DNA of 64,000 nt. It comes from Maridesulfovibrio hydrothermalis AM13 = DSM 14728. GTDB lineage: Bacteria > Desulfobacterota > Desulfovibrionia > Desulfovibrionales > Desulfovibrionaceae. Position 1 is the first letter of the stretch. Every line of letters starts with the position of its first letter. Both the position numbers and the translations under genes were made by a program. The stretch is from positions 1,768,370 to 1,832,369 of the forward strand of contig NC_020055.1 in NCBI RefSeq assembly GCF_000331025.1. The letters are read 5' to 3'. The notes beneath the pieces are model-generated. The model ran no database searches. It worked only from the letters and a program-made list of their open reading frames with translations, and was not told the DNA's origin. Positions 12,876-36,037 of the stretch are shown here, in pieces.

Positions 12876-13856
12876 CTAGTTCTGGTCGCCCAGACGAACT
12901 CTGGGGTCCAGTATGGAGTAAATGATATCAACGATGAGGTTGATTATGATGAACATGGTCACGGTGATCAGCAGGTAGGCCACAATGACCGGACGGTCTA
13001 AAACTCCGATGGAGTCGATGACCAGTTTACCCATGCCGGGCCACGAGAAGATCGTTTCGGTAACAACTGCAAAAGCGATCAGCCCGCCGAATTCCATCCC
13101 CAGAACTGTAACGACCGGAATCATGATATTTTTCATGACATGCAGTCCGATGATTCTGGTGTTGGTCAAACCTTTGGCGCGGGCGAATTTGACGTAATCC
13201 ATTTGCAGGTTTTCCTGAACTCCGGCTCTGCTCAGCCTGATGGCCAGCGAGGTTTTGAAAAGGGCAAGGTTCATGGCCGGCAGAATAAGGTGTTGAATAC
13301 CGTCCCATGTGAGAAAACTAACCGGAACTCCGAAAAGATCCACTGTGGTCCCTCGTCCACCTGACGGCAGCCAGCCCAGATAGACGGAAAAAATAATAAT
13401 GAACATCAGCCCGACCCAGAAGGTGGGCAGACTGAATCCTAGAATCGAGAAACGCATGATACTTCGTCCCAGTAGCGTTTCCGATTTAATGCCTGCAATC
13501 ATCCCCAGCGGTATACCGAATACAACCGCCATGAACATAGCCGTAACCGCCAGTTCCATGGTAGCGGGCATGCGTTGCATGATCAGTTTAAGGGCTGGTT
13601 CGTTGTATACGAACGAGTTGCCTAAGTCGCCTTGTGCTGCGTCTTTTAAAAACCGCCAGTACTGTTCGGGCAGGGACTTATCCAGCCCCAGTTCTTTAAC
13701 AGCGCGATCTCTTTCTGCTGGTGTGGCATCAGGAGCGATAAGAATATCGATCGGGTTGCCGATGCAGAATACACCACCGAACACCAGTACAGACATGACC
13801 AGCAGAACGAGGACGCTTTGTGAAATTCTTCGAATCAAAAATGCGAGCATGAACAT
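12876..13856 (-). CDS. ABC transporter permease (DppB/OppB type)
   Basis: A 326-residue membrane protein with about six helices. It starts with the hydrophobic helix LIRRISQSVLVLLVMSVLVF and a DppB-type periplasmic segment. The EAA loop is VKFARAKGLTNTRIIGLHVMKN, followed by FSWPGMGKLVIDSI. It ends LDPRVRLGDQN, the usual ending of this subfamily. The gene is the first after the dppA-like gene but is separated from it by a terminator hairpin, so permease and ATPase levels are probably lower than binding-protein levels. Confidence 0.92.
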   Translation of the reverse strand: MFMLAFLIRRISQSVLVLLVMSVLVFGGVFCIGNPIDILIAPDATPAERDRAVKELGLDKSLPEQYWRFLKDAAQGDLGNSFVYNEPALKLIMQRMPATMELAVTAMFMAVVFGIPLGMIAGIKSETLLGRSIMRFSILGFSLPTFWVGLMFIIIFSVYLGWLPSGGRGTTVDLFGVPVSFLTWDGIQHLILPAMNLALFKTSLAIRLSRAGVQENLQMDYVKFARAKGLTNTRIIGLHVMKNIMIPVVTVLGMEFGGLIAFAVVTETIFSWPGMGKLVIDSIGVLDRPVIVAYLLITVTMFIIINLIVDIIYSILDPRVRLGDQN

Positions 13857-13866
13857 TGCTCCAGTG

Positions 13867-13900
13867 AAAAAAAAGGGGGGCGTTTTTGCACCCCCTTTTT
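13867..13900 (-). terminator. Partial terminator between binding protein and permease genes
   Basis: On the minus strand AAAAAGGGGG and CCCCCTTTTT form a stem followed by a run of eight T. It lies between the stop of the solute-binding gene (13922) and the permease start (13856), a common way to raise binding-protein stoichiometry. Confidence 0.75.
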
Positions 13901-13921
13901 ATTGGTTATTAAATTAATGGC

Positions 13922-15490
13922 TTAGTTGGTTTTTTTGATTTCGCGAGGCAGAGTGTAACCGTCTGTGCGTCCGTTGAAATCAAGACCTTTTTTCATGCCC
14001 CAGACGTTAACCTGATAGTGGATGGGGATAATTCCGAGATCACCGATCCCCATTTCTGTCGCACGGATGATAAGTTCATTGTGCTTTTCGGGGTTAACGG
14101 TAACCAGTGCTTCTTCGAGAGTAGCGTCAAGGTCGGGGTTGGAGTAGCGTCCACGGTTGGACGCGCCGAATCCTTTTTCTTTATCGTATGTGTGCAGCAG
14201 AGAAGCGATGCAGTTGGACTGTTCGCCGGTATCTGTTGCCCAGCCTACGAGCATGAAGCTGTATTGCAGCTTGGAAGCTGAAGGAAAGTAAACACTCTTG
14301 GGCATGGTGCTGACTTCAGTCTTGATACCTACTTTAGTAAGCATCTGAGCGATAGCCTGAGCAATGTCAGCATCATTTACATAACGATCGTTAGGACCGT
14401 GGATGGTCAGTTTGAAACCTTCGGGGTAGCCGGCAGCTTTCAGCAGTTCTTTTGCTCCCTTAGGATCGTAAGTTTCTGCTTTAAGTCTGGTGCTTGTCCC
14501 TTCGTATCCATCGGGAACCATCTGGCTTGCGGGTACTGCAAGGCCGTCCATGATGCGGGCGGCAATAGCTCTGCGGTTGATAGCTTTGGATATAGCTTTA
14601 CGAACGCGAACGTCTTTCAGAGGGTTTTTAATTTTTTCACCGTTGTTACCTGTGACAGTTGGGGAATCATCACGGTCAGTGTCGAGGTGAATGTAGATAA
14701 GACGGGTGGAAGGAGACTGGGAAAGGTGAAGTTTTTTGTCTTCGCCGAGATGTTCAACGTCTGCTGGAGGCACGAAGTTGATCAGGTCTACATCGCCGGA
14801 TTTAAGCGCGGCAACGCGGGTTCCATCGTTGGTGATGGGGCGAACGATAATTGTGTCCCATGGGAGTTTTTCACCCCAGTAGTCATCGTTGCGTTTGTAA
14901 GTGATTTTATCACCGCGTTCCCATTTAACCAGTGCGTAGGGACCGGTACCGATTGCTGCTTTGCCGGAGTTGAAGTCAGCAGTGGATGCACCTTCTGCGT
15001 TCTTTTTGGAAACAATGGTAAAAGCCGCCATCTGTCTGGGGAGAAGAGGGGAAGGCTTTTCAGTTGTGAAACGGATAGTGTGAGCATCGACAACATCAAC
15101 TTTGATCCCGGTCACAAATCCGGTAAAGGAGGATGGGCTATTTGGAACATTGGGGATACGCTCAAATGTGAATTTTACATCTTCAGCAGTGAACGGTGAT
15201 CCGTCATGAAATTTTACGCCTTTACGAAGTTTGAATTCCCATACGTTGTCGGAAACGGGTGTCCAGGATACAGCAAGGCCGGGCTGAAGTTTCTGTCTGT
15301 TGTCCTGACGGACCAGTTTGTCAAAGATGTACAGAGACATCATGTTGTTGGCTGATACGTTGTGAAAGTGAGGGTCGAGGGAGGTTGGTTCTCCTTTAAG
15401 ACCCATGGTCAGTGTTTCCGCATTGGCAAGGGTTGAGCCAAAGGCAAAACAAGCCACGATTGCAAGAGTCAGTAGTAATTTTTTCCGCAT
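13922..15490 (-). CDS. Peptide/nickel ABC transporter substrate-binding protein (SBP family 5)
   Basis: The 522-residue protein has a signal peptide ending ANA-ETLTMG near residue 25. The SBP_bac_5 start is GLKGEPTSLDPHFHN, and the body holds LRKGVKFHDGSPFTAEDVKFTFERI and VRKAISKAINRRAIAARIMDG. There is no lipobox, so it should be a soluble periplasmic protein. It delivers peptides or a related ligand to the DppBC-type permease encoded just downstream. A good AGGAG lies before the ATG. It is the first gene of the operon, with about 350 bases of non-coding sequence upstream. Confidence 0.93.
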   Translation of the reverse strand: MRKKLLLTLAIVACFAFGSTLANAETLTMGLKGEPTSLDPHFHNVSANNMMSLYIFDKLVRQDNRQKLQPGLAVSWTPVSDNVWEFKLRKGVKFHDGSPFTAEDVKFTFERIPNVPNSPSSFTGFVTGIKVDVVDAHTIRFTTEKPSPLLPRQMAAFTIVSKKNAEGASTADFNSGKAAIGTGPYALVKWERGDKITYKRNDDYWGEKLPWDTIIVRPITNDGTRVAALKSGDVDLINFVPPADVEHLGEDKKLHLSQSPSTRLIYIHLDTDRDDSPTVTGNNGEKIKNPLKDVRVRKAISKAINRRAIAARIMDGLAVPASQMVPDGYEGTSTRLKAETYDPKGAKELLKAAGYPEGFKLTIHGPNDRYVNDADIAQAIAQMLTKVGIKTEVSTMPKSVYFPSASKLQYSFMLVGWATDTGEQSNCIASLLHTYDKEKGFGASNRGRYSNPDLDATLEEALVTVNPEKHNELIIRATEMGIGDLGIIPIHYQVNVWGMKKGLDFNGRTDGYTLPREIKKTN

Positions 15491-29190: not shown

Positions 29191-29429
29191 GTTATTATTC
29201 AAGGTTACGTCAAGGGGAGTTTGCTAGAAAAGCAGTCATAAAAAACAACTTTATTCCAGAGTGTTTTTGTCTGTTATTTTAGGATGATGGGTTGGAAGGA
29301 GTACATTGGTAAGTCTCCTGAAATATTGGATTTAAATGGTATGATTTTTTTGAGAAATAGAAACTCGTTTTTGAATGGACAAAGTTTGATTTTTTATCCT
29401 GATCAGAAGTGATCCTGCTTTACATTTGC

Positions 29430-29451
29430 GGGCAGTTAGTTAGGGCGCAAA
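29430..29451 (+). repeat. Direct repeat copy 1 (IS left-end fragment)
   Basis: A 22-base sequence starting GGGCAGTTAG and ending GGGCGCAAA recurs exactly at 30515-30536. Both copies are preceded by a similar TGA(T)CCTG...ACATTT stretch, so the repeat extends to about 40 bases with differences. Confidence 0.8.
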
Positions 29452-30406: not shown

Positions 30407-30446
30407 GTATGATAGACGCATAGAGGACTCTATGCGTCTATCATAC
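30407..30446. terminator. 19-bp perfect hairpin after the 98-residue gene
   Basis: Arms 30407-30425 and 30428-30446 are exact complements with a two-base GA centre. There is no T-run, so it may be a terminator, a processing site or a cruciform-forming operator. Confidence 0.5.
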
Positions 30447-30514
30447 TTGTGTTAGTTCTGATTTGATCTGAACTTCCTCTTGAAACAGAAGGGGGTGACC
30501 TGTCACATTTTTCT

Positions 30515-30536
30515 GGGCAGTTAGTTAGGGCGCAAA
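30515..30536 (+). repeat. Direct repeat copy 2 (IS left-end fragment)
   Basis: This is an exact second copy of the 22-base sequence at 29430-29451, in the same orientation and preceded by TGACCTGTCACATTTTTCT. It looks like the left end of a related IS copy whose body is lost. Confidence 0.8.
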
Positions 30537-31271: not shown

Positions 31272-31347
<76 letters not shown>

Positions 31348-31456
31348 ACCTGTATTAGATGGCTTTTTTTAGCGTTAATATCTGTTGGTCAGGTACGCTC
31401 AACTGTGTTGACAGGAGCTTCGTCAAAAGCCTTAGGTGACAATATTTGGTATAAGA

Positions 31457-31486
31457 AAAGGGCCGTAAATAATTATACGGCCCTTT
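31457..31486 (-). terminator. Terminator downstream of tRNA-Pro
   Basis: The arms AAAGGGCCGTA and TACGGCCCTTT form an 11-bp stem with a CTTTTCTTAT tail on the minus strand. Confidence 0.75.
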
Positions 31487-31501
31487 GGGGTGTTCTATTC
31501 G

Positions 31502-31578
31502 TGGTCGGGATGAGAGGAGTTGAACCTCCGACCCCTTGAACCCCATTCAAGTGCGCTACCAGACTGCGCTACATCCCG
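31502..31578 (-). tRNA. tRNA-Pro (anticodon GGG)
   Basis: A 77-base cloverleaf on the minus strand with acceptor CGGGATG / CATCCCG, encoded ACCA, anticodon stem CTTGA / TCAAG with loop ATGGGGT, and a T arm containing GGTTCAACTCC. The anticodon GGG reads CCC and CCT. Confidence 0.95.
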
Positions 31579-32058
31579 ACGTCACGGAGAGAAGATCTAT
31601 TTAATTGCCGTGGACAAGTCAATGCTTTTTTTGAGAAAATTAGATTTGCATACAAAATAACGGGGAAGTTTGAATAATTATTAGGAATGACAATTTTTAC
31701 GGTATAAGAATGGAACTTTTAAGTTGAAGCTTATTTTCAAATTACAAGTGTTGATATTGAATTTATTATAATGTATAGGTTCGATTGTTGTTAGTGTGCT
31801 ACTGTATTATGTTTGAACTTTGGGTAGTAAGTTTGGGTTTGGTCATTCGCTTTTCCTGTGAAAGTCAGAATAGGGACTTAAATATGTTTCAGTCAATATG
31901 TAACAGGATTAATTCTTTTATTGTTATTTAAAAAAAATATTTGACGTTGGATTGTGCATAATATAAGCTATATTGTAAGCAACTGATTAAGAGTATGTTG
32001 ATTCTTTGAGTAATCATGACATATCAATAACTACTAATTATCAGCTTGGAGAAAGAGC
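31579..32058. other. AT-rich non-coding region upstream of the radical SAM gene
   Basis: No gene is supported in these 480 bases. The sequence becomes markedly AT-rich. A possible promoter is TTGACG (31941-31946) with TATAAG 15 bases later; the spacing is short. The left copy of the 22-bp inverted repeat lies at 32022-32043. Confidence 0.5.
32022..32043 (+). repeat. Left 22-bp inverted repeat
   Basis: It begins TATCAATAAC and ends TAATTATCA. The layout AATAA-CTACTAA-TTATC resembles a tyrosine-recombinase core site with an asymmetric 7-base spacer. Its exact reverse complement lies at 36016-36037. Confidence 0.9.
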
Positions 32059-34113
32059 ATGAAGCCTTTATGGCTCCTTGGTGTAACAGGGTTATATCAA
32101 GAATTTTACCAGCCTGATACGCAGGCATTAGTATCCCCAGTAGATATAATCCAAAATAATGTATTAGATTCGGGAACTATCTTTTGGAAGAACTTGTTGC
32201 AGCCGGAAAGAGTGCTAAAAGTAGTCAATGCACTCGAGGAAAATATTCACAACCCAACGCATCAAATTCCTCAGTTTTTAGCTGTTGTTGCAAATAAAAG
32301 TAAATTTATTTCTTGTGTTCTTGATTATCGCGTAAGTATTTGCGACCAAGGAGTTGAAGATAGGCAGTTTTTTAATAAGCTAGAGACATTAGCCATATTA
32401 TGTGAACTATATTCACAGTTTGAGTTTTATCCGTTTAAACTGAGCATCCAAAATGGTTTTCTATTAAATGAAACATCGGCTAAAGAAATCATACATAACT
32501 GTCAAAGCATTTCACATAATCCGCACATTCCTTTTCTTAACGATGTAATTCTCCCATTAATATTAGACTATCATCCTGATGTTATTTTTTGCACAGGCAA
32601 AATTAGTTATTTCCATATTGCACTAGCTAAAATGATCAAAAAAGAATTTTTAGATGTGCATATATGTTTTACTCGTCACTCCTCAGAGTATTATTCTTTA
32701 AATAAAATAAAAAAATATTTGAAAAACAATTCCGAATTATTTTCAGTAGTCGACAGTATAGTTTTGGAATATTTTGATGAATCTGAGCAGAAGCTTCTAG
32801 AAAACTTGGAATTGAAAAATGATGTATCTAATCTATCCAATATTCTGACTTTAAATAAAGAAGATGAAACGAAAGAAATTAGACATCGGCCACCTCAAAA
32901 TACATCGGTTTCGATAGTTAATAGAAGGAAAAAACAAATTTCTGGGTTTAAAATATCACCAGAAAAAATTTATGACATTCACTTTGACCCTTATGTGAAA
33001 TGCTATTGGAATAAGTGTGTGTTTTGCGGAATCAATAAGAAGTATACACATGGAGATTGTGTTGAAGAGAATAGCCCAATAAGGGGAAAAATAAACAAAC
33101 TATGTAAAGAGCTATCTGACAAATCTTTCGTGTGGTTCATTGATGAGGCAATTCACCCATCTAAGCTCAGCAAAATAGCAGACTTTTTTATTGCTAATAA
33201 AAATCAATATACTTGGCAAGTCCGATGCCGAATTGACAATGGACTTCTCGCTAAGGGGCTTGCTGAAAAGCTTGCGCAGTCTGGATTAAAGGAGCTTCGC
33301 CTAGGCTTAGAATCTGCTTCCATTAGAATCCTTAAATTAATGAGTAAATTCGAAGACGGGTTCCAATTAAAAATGGTAGAACAAATTGTTAAGACGTATT
33401 CTGAACATGGTATATCTATACATTTCCCCATGATAATCGGTTTTCCAGGAGAAGAGGCCGCGGACAGACAAAGAACGTATGAGTTCCTCTCCTCCATACG
33501 CGAAAAATATCCTACGGTAACATTTAACATCAATATTTTTAATTTTGATGTTAGCAGCCCGCTATTTAAAATGTGGGATAACTACTCGATTTCGAAAATA
33601 AATTTCCCATGTTCTCCCTCAGACTTCATCGGTAATTCTGTCAGTTGGGACGATCAAGCAAAGACAGAAGAGATTATCTTAGATCGCGAGCGAAACTCGT
33701 TTATGCGCAACAAACTCTATCATTGGATGCCACGAGAGTCTTTCATCACGCCAACAATATTTTATAGATTGAGCGAGACAATTCGTAATACTCTTGTTTG
33801 GAAACAAAGCAACTCGATTCCCGAAAGTTATGATTTTTCGATGGATAGCCTTATCCAGATATCGCCCAATTTGGTCGTGCAAAAAAAGGCTGACGGAGAA
33901 TATCTAGCCTATAATTGGAACACACACCATTATATAGAAGGCGATGAAGTTATGTGCAATATTCTAGATACATGGGATATTCCAAAGAGTATTGAACAAG
34001 GCACTATAGAGCTAGGTCAAAAGAAGGACGAGGTGTTTGTTAGCAGCGACATTGTCATATTAATAAAAAAACTATTACACTATGGTCATTTTTTTATTGT
34101 AGATGAAGCCTGA
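32059..34113 (+). CDS. B12-binding-like radical SAM enzyme with C-terminal PqqD-like domain (putative RiPP maturase)
   Basis: This 684-residue protein has three parts. Residues ~150-270 resemble a cobalamin-binding fold (HPDVIFCTGKISYFHIALAKMIKK, then VHICFTRHSSEYY and VVDSIVLEYFDESEQKLL) but lack the DxHxxG histidine. Residues ~310-530 are a radical SAM barrel with the cluster ligands C-YWNK-C-VF-C (CX4CX2C, not the usual CX3CX2C), then FIDEAIHP, RLGLESAS and IIGFPGEE. Residues ~595-684 (SPNLVVQKKADGEYLAYN... LLHYGHFFIVDE) look like a PqqD-type RiPP recognition element. GGAG lies 8 bases before the ATG. A poly-Gly peptide gene follows after 87 bases on the same strand, which makes it the probable substrate. 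The chemistry is unknown. Confidence 0.8.
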   Translation: MKPLWLLGVTGLYQEFYQPDTQALVSPVDIIQNNVLDSGTIFWKNLLQPERVLKVVNALEENIHNPTHQIPQFLAVVANKSKFISCVLDYRVSICDQGVEDRQFFNKLETLAILCELYSQFEFYPFKLSIQNGFLLNETSAKEIIHNCQSISHNPHIPFLNDVILPLILDYHPDVIFCTGKISYFHIALAKMIKKEFLDVHICFTRHSSEYYSLNKIKKYLKNNSELFSVVDSIVLEYFDESEQKLLENLELKNDVSNLSNILTLNKEDETKEIRHRPPQNTSVSIVNRRKKQISGFKISPEKIYDIHFDPYVKCYWNKCVFCGINKKYTHGDCVEENSPIRGKINKLCKELSDKSFVWFIDEAIHPSKLSKIADFFIANKNQYTWQVRCRIDNGLLAKGLAEKLAQSGLKELRLGLESASIRILKLMSKFEDGFQLKMVEQIVKTYSEHGISIHFPMIIGFPGEEAADRQRTYEFLSSIREKYPTVTFNINIFNFDVSSPLFKMWDNYSISKINFPCSPSDFIGNSVSWDDQAKTEEIILDRERNSFMRNKLYHWMPRESFITPTIFYRLSETIRNTLVWKQSNSIPESYDFSMDSLIQISPNLVVQKKADGEYLAYNWNTHHYIEGDEVMCNILDTWDIPKSIEQGTIELGQKKDEVFVSSDIVILIKKLLHYGHFFIVDEA

Positions 34114-34200
34114 CAACTATTACAATTCATCTAACAACATAACGGTAGATGTTTATAAGGTAACGAGAGGTAAAAACCATTTTAAACAAAAGAGTAAACA

Positions 34201-34392
34201 ATGATAGAGTCCTCAAGTAAAAACGTGATTATTTTTGATGGAGAGAAAAAAGGGTATACACTAGATAAAGATTCTCAGATTTTCTCAGAACGCTATGGTC
34301 TCGTCGATCCTGCCACGAGCGGTGGAGGCGGAGGTGGAGGTGGAGGCGGAGGTGGCGGCGGAGGTGGCGGAGGTGGTGGCGGAGGCGGTTAA
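34201..34392 (+). CDS. Putative RiPP precursor: 40-residue leader plus 23 C-terminal glycines
   Basis: The 63-residue peptide starts MIESSSKNVIIFDGEKKGYT and continues to RYGLVDPATS, then consists only of glycine (residues 41-63) up to the TAA. The glycine codons are mixed (8 GGT, 8 GGA, 7 GGC, no GGG), so the tract is not a simple trinucleotide slip and seems maintained as protein. The 40-residue N-terminus has leader-like composition. The gene directly follows the radical SAM gene on the same strand; only a weak ribosome site (AAGAG) is visible. Microcin B17 also has a Gly-rich core, but heterocycle-forming Cys and Ser are absent here. No similar precursor family is recognised with certainty. 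Confidence 0.75.
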   Translation: MIESSSKNVIIFDGEKKGYTLDKDSQIFSERYGLVDPATSGGGGGGGGGGGGGGGGGGGGGGG

Positions 34393-34406
34393 TAGTTAAT
34401 ATTAAC

Positions 34407-34449
34407 AAAAAAGAGTTCCCCTAATGATCATCCTTCTTTAGGAGAACTC
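34407..34449 (-). terminator. Terminator of the pentapeptide-repeat gene
   Basis: On the minus strand TTAGGGGAACTC and GAGTTCTCCTAA (one mismatch) form a hairpin followed by TTTTTT. It lies between the convergent precursor and pentapeptide genes. Confidence 0.8.
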
Positions 34450-34467
34450 ATGTTAATTTCTGGTAAC

Positions 34468-36000
34468 TTAATCTTCTTTCATAATGGTTAATTCGCGAAA
34501 TTGTTTAGGGACGGATGCTTCACGCTTAGCATGCATCATAATGTTAACTGATTTCACACGCCTCTTTAGAGGTGTAGAGGGAAGAAATTTTTTTTTATTT
34601 TGTCTTGTATGCACGTGAGCCGGATGTTTTTGTAAAAGACGCTCTTTTTCTTCAATCTCCAACCGTTTATATTTATTATCTAACTTAACTCCTTCAGTTC
34701 GATAATATCCATCATATACCTTCTGCACCGCCATAACCGCAGATGTTGCTCCAAGAAACCCTTTTAATACGGCCAACGCTAGGTTTCCCAAAACGACAGC
34801 AGAATCACTTAGAATAAGTTCTATCAAATATGGCGAATTATGCCGAAAGATCATGTGATCAGAAGCTTGTGGTGCATACTCCTCAATCGCTTCATTTAAG
34901 TAACTAAACATCTCAGCGGTAACTGTAACTTCTTCGGGGTGAATATCTGTTGCAAGGGTGATTTTCATTTCTGGCAACCCAAATGGACTGTCAATCAACA
35001 TGCGTTTTATCCGGTCCAGTTCATAACTATATGCCTGATACTCATGCTCTGTCAGAATCTGAACAATTGAGTCTGACTTCAATCCCTCATACAGATTTCG
35101 CAATTGTTTTTTTGTAAAAAAAAGATTGAGTGATGCTAATTTGCAGTAATAGCCAATCATGCGAAAATCTTTTTGCGCAAGACTGTATCTTAAACCTTTT
35201 TTAAGATACTCGTATGCTAAGTCATGTTTTCCAAAATATATGTTTATGGTCGATAAAGTAAAAAAATCATTAGTTTTAGAGAAAAACGCCTGTATATCTT
35301 CTAGTTTAGAAACAAGTTCTGAGAATGTGATCTCAACATCACTTGCTGGAAATTTAAATAGAATATTATCAGAATTTTTTTCTGCGTTCTCTAAGCCCCC
35401 GAATGAATGGAGAATACCGACAAGTGGTAATTTTACGTTTTTAAATGACACATTTTCCATAATTGAAAAATCAATGTTTGTTCGTGACAAATCGATATTT
35501 TCAAATACAGAATTTTCGAAATGTGCATTTTCAAAACTGCAATCCCAACAATTACTATTCCGCAATGATGCATTTTTAAAGTATGAACTTTCAAAATTAC
35601 ATCCTCGGAAAGTTATCCCATCCAGATTAGACTTTGCAAAATTAGTATATGCAAAGCTACTCGCAGCAATATCTGCTTTTGAATGATCTGATTTGGTAAA
35701 ATTAGAAAAATCAAAACAAGAATTTTTAATTTGACAATTTTTGAGAACACACTCTTCAAAAGAGGATGAAGCTCCGGAGGTTCCTAGAAATGAAACTTCA
35801 TTAAAAAAGCATTTAGTAAAATGGGCTTTCTTTATTTTTGATCCATCAAATTCTTTACCATAACTTTGCTCACATGCTTGCATGCCGGAGTAGTCTATTG
35901 AATCAAATAAAGATGGATCAAATTGTCTCAAGAGAGACTCCGCTCTCATCAATTCTACATTAGAGAATTCGGCTATAATGTAATCGTTAGAGTTGCCCAT
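34468..36000 (-). CDS. Large pentapeptide-repeat protein
   Basis: The 510-residue protein has a central run of pentapeptide repeats at about residues 55-200 (SFAYTNFAKSNLDGITFRGCNFESSYFKN..., with F/L at the repeat centre). A helical region follows, then a segment with a likely membrane helix (LGNLALAVLKGFLGATSAVMAV, near 405-430), and a basic, lysine-rich C-terminus. Known pentapeptide proteins include McbG, the self-immunity protein of the Gly-rich microcin B17, and Qnr gyrase protectors; an immunity role is possible but inferred. It is convergent to the peptide gene. Its start codon is preceded, at exactly 15 bases, by the same 22-bp repeat found before the radical SAM gene. Confidence 0.75.
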   Translation of the reverse strand: MGNSNDYIIAEFSNVELMRAESLLRQFDPSLFDSIDYSGMQACEQSYGKEFDGSKIKKAHFTKCFFNEVSFLGTSGASSSFEECVLKNCQIKNSCFDFSNFTKSDHSKADIAASSFAYTNFAKSNLDGITFRGCNFESSYFKNASLRNSNCWDCSFENAHFENSVFENIDLSRTNIDFSIMENVSFKNVKLPLVGILHSFGGLENAEKNSDNILFKFPASDVEITFSELVSKLEDIQAFFSKTNDFFTLSTINIYFGKHDLAYEYLKKGLRYSLAQKDFRMIGYYCKLASLNLFFTKKQLRNLYEGLKSDSIVQILTEHEYQAYSYELDRIKRMLIDSPFGLPEMKITLATDIHPEEVTVTAEMFSYLNEAIEEYAPQASDHMIFRHNSPYLIELILSDSAVVLGNLALAVLKGFLGATSAVMAVQKVYDGYYRTEGVKLDNKYKRLEIEEKERLLQKHPAHVHTRQNKKKFLPSTPLKRRVKSVNIMMHAKREASVPKQFRELTIMKED

Positions 36001-36015
36001 GAAGCTAAGGACCTT

Positions 36016-36037
36016 TGATAATTAGTAGTTATTGATA
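36016..36037 (-). repeat. Right 22-bp inverted repeat
   Basis: This is the exact reverse complement of 32022-32043, so it reads identically relative to the gene it precedes. It lies in the 58-base gap between the recombinase stop and the pentapeptide gene start. Confidence 0.9.

Follow-up and report, generated by a model that had tools for sequence, protein, structure and literature searches.

An inverted repeat bounds two convergent transcription units

The window, by which we mean the whole 64,000-nt stretch of Maridesulfovibrio hydrothermalis AM13 = DSM 14728 (NC_020055.1) that was analysed, contains a radical SAM gene and a pentapeptide-repeat gene that face each other between two copies of a 22-bp repeat (Table 1). 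The G+C content of this segment, the cassette, is 35.7%, versus 40.7-50.2% in other segments of the same size along the stretch. The original prediction described a perfect inverted repeat ahead of both genes and next to a tyrosine recombinase, and its sequence details proved exact. The copy at 36016-36037 is the precise reverse complement of that at 32022-32043, which makes the two sites identical. Fifteen bases (32044-32058) separate the distal site from the ATG of the radical SAM gene (32059), 15 bases (36001-36015) separate the proximal site from the ATG of the pentapeptide-repeat gene (36000), and a further 21 bases lie between the right copy and the end of the XerC-like recombinase gene beyond it. 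Both sites have the AATAA-7-TTATC layout, in which CTACTAA is the presumed 7-bp crossover region. With up to three mismatches allowed, no further copy was found within the window, where 100 shuffles gave an expectation of 0, or across the 3.71-Mb genome. The sites do not overlap the nearby tRNA genes. Two other repeats were noted in the window: a perfect, intergenic 19-nt inverted repeat with a 2-nt loop (30407-30446) and a 27-nt direct repeat (29425-29451 and 30510-30536), 93% identical and 1085 bp apart.

Table 1. Features of the cassette locus (positions in the window).
Feature	Coordinates	Strand	Basis and remarks
tRNA-Thr and tRNA-Pro genes	31272..31578	-	ARAGORN; conserved distal flank, outside the cassette
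Distal recombination site (inverted copy)	32022..32043	+	TATCAATAACTACTAATTATCA; core AATAA-CTACTAA-TTATC; exact inverted repeat; relatives share consensus and position
Cassette of two convergent transcription units	32044..36015		Exchangeable and invertible (from relatives), low G+C
Radical SAM protein, 684 aa	32059..34113	+	Pfam PF04055, 1.3e-8
63-aa ORF with polyglycine C-terminal tail	34201..34392	+	Sequence; 3' of the radical SAM gene
Pentapeptide-repeat protein, 510 aa, long C-terminal region	34468..36000	-	Pfam PF00805, 3.2e-14
Proximal recombination site	36016..36037	-	21 bp past the recombinase stop codon; exact inverted repeat; recombinase-adjacent site conserved in relatives
XerC-like tyrosine recombinase, 307 aa	36059..36982	-	Pfam PF00589, 2.1e-41

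The window cassette may encode a modified peptide and its partner protein

The radical SAM protein showed weak similarity to the B12-type enzymes PhpK, ApyD and rSAM_ocin, and its NCBIfam matches were far under the cut-offs. Its AlphaFold model had a mean pLDDT of 40 and was unusable. Scanning the protein against the genome contigs and searching it in plasmids gave no match, and 395 genomes sampled from the phylum yielded a single partial match (28%). A homolog with 35-36% identity was present in L004, where an ORF running into polyglycine also follows the radical SAM gene. In L004 (1-3363), these two genes adjoin a different tyrosine integrase, and the contig is too short to reveal any pentapeptide gene. 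The exact version of the radical SAM/polyglycine cassette was not detected at any other locus of the window recombinase's family. Judged from its sequence, the 63-aa polyglycine ORF, which the original prediction did not mention, may encode the peptide that the radical SAM enzyme modifies.

The other, convergent half of the cassette is the pentapeptide-repeat protein. Its AlphaFold model, usable mainly for this part, contained a beta-helix at about residues 40-190, and Foldseek matched the protein to pentapeptide-repeat proteins including AlbG, Qnr and MfpA. Homologs were found in the L079 and L107 cassettes, and in L036, L064, L079 and L107 a pentapeptide protein of the window type has a radical SAM or ATP-grasp gene as its partner. 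These pairings support the earlier suggestion that the pentapeptide gene is tied to a peptide system. Microcin B17 with McbG likewise combines a glycine-rich peptide, a modifying enzyme and a pentapeptide-repeat protein, and by analogy the content of the window cassette may be comparable. The modifying enzyme of microcin B17 is a cyclodehydratase, whereas the window encodes a radical SAM enzyme. In contrast to McbG, the pentapeptide protein of the window continues into a long additional C-terminal region, and the cassette is without export genes. A role of this protein in immunity to the peptide would be an analogy. PADLOC detected no strong known defence model for the window proteins or for the STAND NTPases of relatives. 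Plausibly, the window cassette yields a modified peptide, with the pentapeptide protein serving for self-protection against it or for the response to it.

The recombinase belongs to a family of its own

We compared the recombinase with the housekeeping Xer proteins. It scored 255.7 bits against a XerC cut-off of 335.15 and 248.1 bits against a XerD cut-off of 329.6, and the genome encodes a separate XerD (357 bits) and another Xer protein elsewhere. IQ-TREE split the recombinase family from 12 reference Xer rows (XerC/XerD) with a support of 100/99, although the position of a few long-branch rows is uncertain. Thus, neither the scores nor the tree place the window recombinase among housekeeping XerC/XerD. 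The genus and family of the window organism contain homologs at 53-74% identity, and the recombinases of the window, L035 and L036 form one clade in the tree. A scan of named genomes detected relatives in Desulfobacterota, Campylobacterota, Bacillota, Bacteroidota, Cloacimonadota and Lentisphaerota; loci of the family, both chromosomal and plasmid-borne, are spread over several phyla. We know of no recombination assay for this recombinase family.

The site accompanies the recombinase gene in relatives

In the homologs from the same genus and family, a site of the form TATCRATAACTANNAATTAT lies past the recombinase stop codon, within ~40 bp or overlapping the gene end. Of 109 family members, 66 had a GATAA-N7-TTAT-type motif following the stop codon, versus 2% of random windows and none of the 12 clear reference Xer genes. 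In some members of the family, most of them Lachnospiraceae, no recognisable site follows the stop codon. The window and the Aliarcobacter plasmids carry a variant in which A replaces the first G of GATAA, and in Streptococcus plasmids the site is located upstream of the recombinase instead. A second, inverted site was found 1.6-6.7 kb away (1.6-5.5 kb in the homologs of the genus and family), with unrelated genes in between, and the recombinase lies outside the inverted site pair in the members examined. The variable central bases (GG, AA, GA, AG or CT) differ between loci, but those of the proximal and the distal site agree in all listed pairs. A tyrosine recombinase depends on such agreement, as the crossover regions of its partner sites must match. 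Among individual loci, L054 (G078, ~10001) has a recombinase 38% identical to that of the window, with the same site adjoining and an inverted site 2.3 kb off. L049 (3598-9976) contains two tandem cassettes ~80 bp apart; each is bounded by a separate inverted site pair, and the central sequence is TTGGAAA-type in one pair and CTGAGAA-type in the other. In L037, the first cassette is succeeded by another recombinase copy (13595-15304), which is broken but has a site and cargo of its own, and the site is present twice near the distal end.

These results also bear on whether host enzymes catalyse the exchange. The site resembles dif half-sites (ATAA...TTAT) and the genome encodes XerD and another Xer protein, so that housekeeping XerC/XerD might act here as host Xer does in Acinetobacter dif modules; homologous recombination might act as well. 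The site co-occurs across phyla with this recombinase clade and not with reference Xer genes, however, and the genome contains no other copy of it, while homologous recombination would require longer repeats. We therefore consider catalysis by either route unlikely, and the window recombinase is presumed to act on both sites.

Homologous loci occur in both orientations

The original prediction proposed that the segment between the repeats may invert and called for a comparison of strains for both orientations. Such a comparison was provided by two plasmids of Aliarcobacter cryaerophilus, pACRY43158 from the United Kingdom and pM830MA from New Zealand. Their recombinases are identical and their flanks are 99.85-99.9% identical in the same direction, but a 3458-bp segment, 99.91% identical, runs in the opposite direction, with the switch exactly at the sites (loci L143 and L057). 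Homologous gene pairs in both orientations were found in many taxa, e.g., L048/L070, L093/L116, L040/L142 and L056/L139. Inversion at such loci is thus strongly supported by homologous loci; the window strain and species are represented by one closed genome, which has a single orientation and a single cassette.

Assembly breaks in relatives point to the same sites. In 28 of 80 relatives a contig ended within 300 bp downstream of the recombinase, versus 5 upstream (sign test, p 7e-5), and several of the downstream ends coincide precisely with the site. G114 and G296 each have two contigs, one of them from the recombinase side, that stop right at the site, and the second contig of G296 matches the distal flank of its relative G078. 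A repeat of 20 bp would not by itself be expected to interrupt an assembly, so these breaks, which could partly reflect strain mixtures in metagenomes, suggest that more than one arrangement was present in the sequenced material of relatives.

Whole cassettes are replaced between conserved flanks in relatives

The original prediction considered inversion only. Sequence comparison of relatives shows that, in addition, the segment as a whole is swapped for other, unrelated pairs of genes, with the same sites as boundaries. Near-identical plasmids of Streptococcus salivarius/equinus carry three unrelated gene pairs between inverted repeats of 26-39 bp, and on either side the repeats mark the point where homology sets in again (99.1% across 5.1 kb in the case of L141/L142). 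Plasmid pAFAEC of Aliarcobacter faecis shares its flanks, but not its cassette, with both A. cryaerophilus plasmids. In the Desulfovibrio-type genomes, four locus pairs (L035/L036, L044/L045, L045/L046 and L050/L051) have flanks that are homologous up to both sites and cassettes that are non-homologous. The window locus is orthologous to L035/L036 at its distal side (tRNA-Pro, tRNA-Thr and tadA), its tRNA-bearing flank being homologous to theirs, and the three cassettes found at this position are all different. In L035 (12351-13209), the tRNA-Pro/tRNA-Thr pair is tandemly duplicated at the distal flank. Relatives therefore combine the same flanks with unrelated content, with breakpoints at the sites.

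Three other explanations were weighed. An integrated mobile element, simple or decayed, would have the 22-bp ends as its termini and the recombinase as its integrase, and the low G+C content, the nearby tRNA genes and the presence of a tyrosine recombinase fit this. On the other hand, the recombinase lies outside the inverted pair in the members examined, the sites are inverted rather than direct and are without tRNA overlap, and flank homology covers the recombinase and the distal flank, only the part between the sites changing. We rejected an element with terminal repeats, since the recombinase is outside and the flanks stay, and regard this origin as very unlikely. Alternatively, the repeat could be an operator at which a shared transcription factor regulates the two genes, with no role in recombination, in keeping with the position of both copies 15 bp ahead of start codons. 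For relatives we rejected this operator-only reading because the inversion and replacement breakpoints coincide with homologous sites, and the site tracks the recombinase gene and no single gene family; we consider it highly improbable, the least probable of the explanations weighed.

The third explanation is a dedicated phase-variation switch, in which a fixed 4-kb segment is inverted to choose the expressed gene and replacement is rare and incidental. The natural inversion in relatives and the homologous pairs in both orientations agree with it. So does a terminator-like hairpin between recombinase and site, found in Bacillota members at 9 of the 27 loci whose site is 30 bp or more past the stop codon of the recombinase, versus 0.2% in shuffles, as it would block read-through from the recombinase into the proximal gene. 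In some Bacillota, orientation should matter for expression, since the hairpin separates the recombinase from the site. The window, in contrast, has no terminator hairpin or long spacer between recombinase and site, and the unrelated cassettes in sister genomes and in near-identical plasmids indicate that replacement is common. A dedicated switch is possible, but we regard it as doubtful.

Cassette halves are paired across phyla

Among 43 segments bounded by an inverted site pair, 42 are strictly convergent. One half typically encodes a STAND-like NTPase, which may carry a nuclease domain, or a TIR, SIR2 or pentapeptide protein. The other half typically encodes an ATP-grasp ligase, a glycosyltransferase, a methyltransferase, a PLP enzyme, a radical SAM enzyme or others, the glycosyltransferases and methyltransferases being assigned by inspection or record annotation. 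Homology extended to both halves in 25 pairs of cassettes (10 in the same and 15 in the opposite orientation), versus 1.2 when the halves were shuffled (maximum 7 in 1000); the pairs counted are not independent of one another. The sequences compared thus indicate that gene partners travel together across phyla. The cassettes look like competition or defence genes. In L076 (8974-11111), a TIR protein and Thoeris ThsA (5e-104) form a convergent pair between sites; this is one cassette of many, and the window cassette is not Thoeris. Many cassettes have a STAND NTPase, TIR or nuclease half whose partner enzyme has, to our knowledge, no known defence role.

A proposed platform for invertible and exchangeable gene pairs

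We propose, with a probability of roughly 85%, that the locus is a fixed platform made up of a dedicated recombinase, dif-like sites and an invertible and exchangeable convergent cassette. Building on the site, inversion, replacement and pairing observed in relatives, this explanation would have the XerC-like recombinase cross over within the 7-bp centre of the sites, in the window strain as well. Recombination between the two resident sites would invert the segment, and two crossovers between the resident pair and the same site pair on incoming DNA would replace it as a whole. An inverted pair cannot leave as an excised circle, so the transfer of single cassettes probably involves a double crossover, or a cointegrate and its resolution, a route that has been proposed for dif modules (PMC13141974). 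Since the start codons adjoin the sites, the cassette genes are probably transcribed from promoters outside the cassette. Most often, the cassette pair would be a co-adapted unit of an effector or sensor and an enzyme whose substrate is a peptide or another small molecule.

The nearest known system is the dif modules of Acinetobacter, and integrons are close in logic. In dif modules the dif-like sites are inversely oriented, identical spacers go with inversion, and single modules are replaced (PMC13141974). Inversely oriented dif-like sites are also present here, with identical centres in the window and the listed relatives. Host XerC/XerD are thought to act on dif modules, whereas the sequences here point to a dedicated recombinase of its own clade outside one site. 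Dif modules have a 6-bp spacer and distinct XerC and XerD arms and form arrays on plasmids, whereas the present sites appear to have a GATAA-N7-TTATC layout with similar arms and nearly always bound one convergent pair, in several phyla and on both chromosomes and plasmids. Integrons share a fixed tyrosine recombinase beside a site and exchangeable, apparently promoterless cassettes. They differ in their integrase, as the window recombinase scored 99.4 bits with the integron-integrase model TIGR02249 (cut-off 265); in their sites, which here appear to be short and inverted instead of attI/attC; and in cargo, which here is usually one invertible two-gene cassette per site pair. In fim-type invertases and PsrA/hsdS systems, a recombinase also adjoins inverted repeats and both orientations occur, but these systems act on fixed promoters or partial genes, whereas the segment described here is also swapped for unrelated pairs. 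The window recombinase reached 54-69 bits with the fim-type invertase models, against cut-offs of 221-222.

We found no description of this system in the open-access literature searched; subscription papers and preprints fell outside the scope of the search, which makes its novelty provisional. On balance, we favour the view that these loci represent an undescribed, cross-phylum form of natural recombinase-mediated cassette exchange, in which a dedicated XerC-like enzyme would keep a socket for two-sided, promoterless effector/enzyme pairs and which would be a reservoir of new defence or competition systems, including the radical SAM/polyglycine and pentapeptide cassette. The order of recombinase stop codon, GATAA-N7-TTATC site, convergent pair and inverted site provides a sequence rule that picks exchangeable gene pairs in unrelated bacteria. 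With partners moving as pairs, every cassette points to a two-gene system worth testing, and one of them already matches Thoeris. The platform also offers a reason for the assembly breaks at these points, and it opens natural cassette exchange and the inversion of gene pairs to direct testing. Bacteria thus appear to own a little-noticed socket for trading apparent competition and defence genes.
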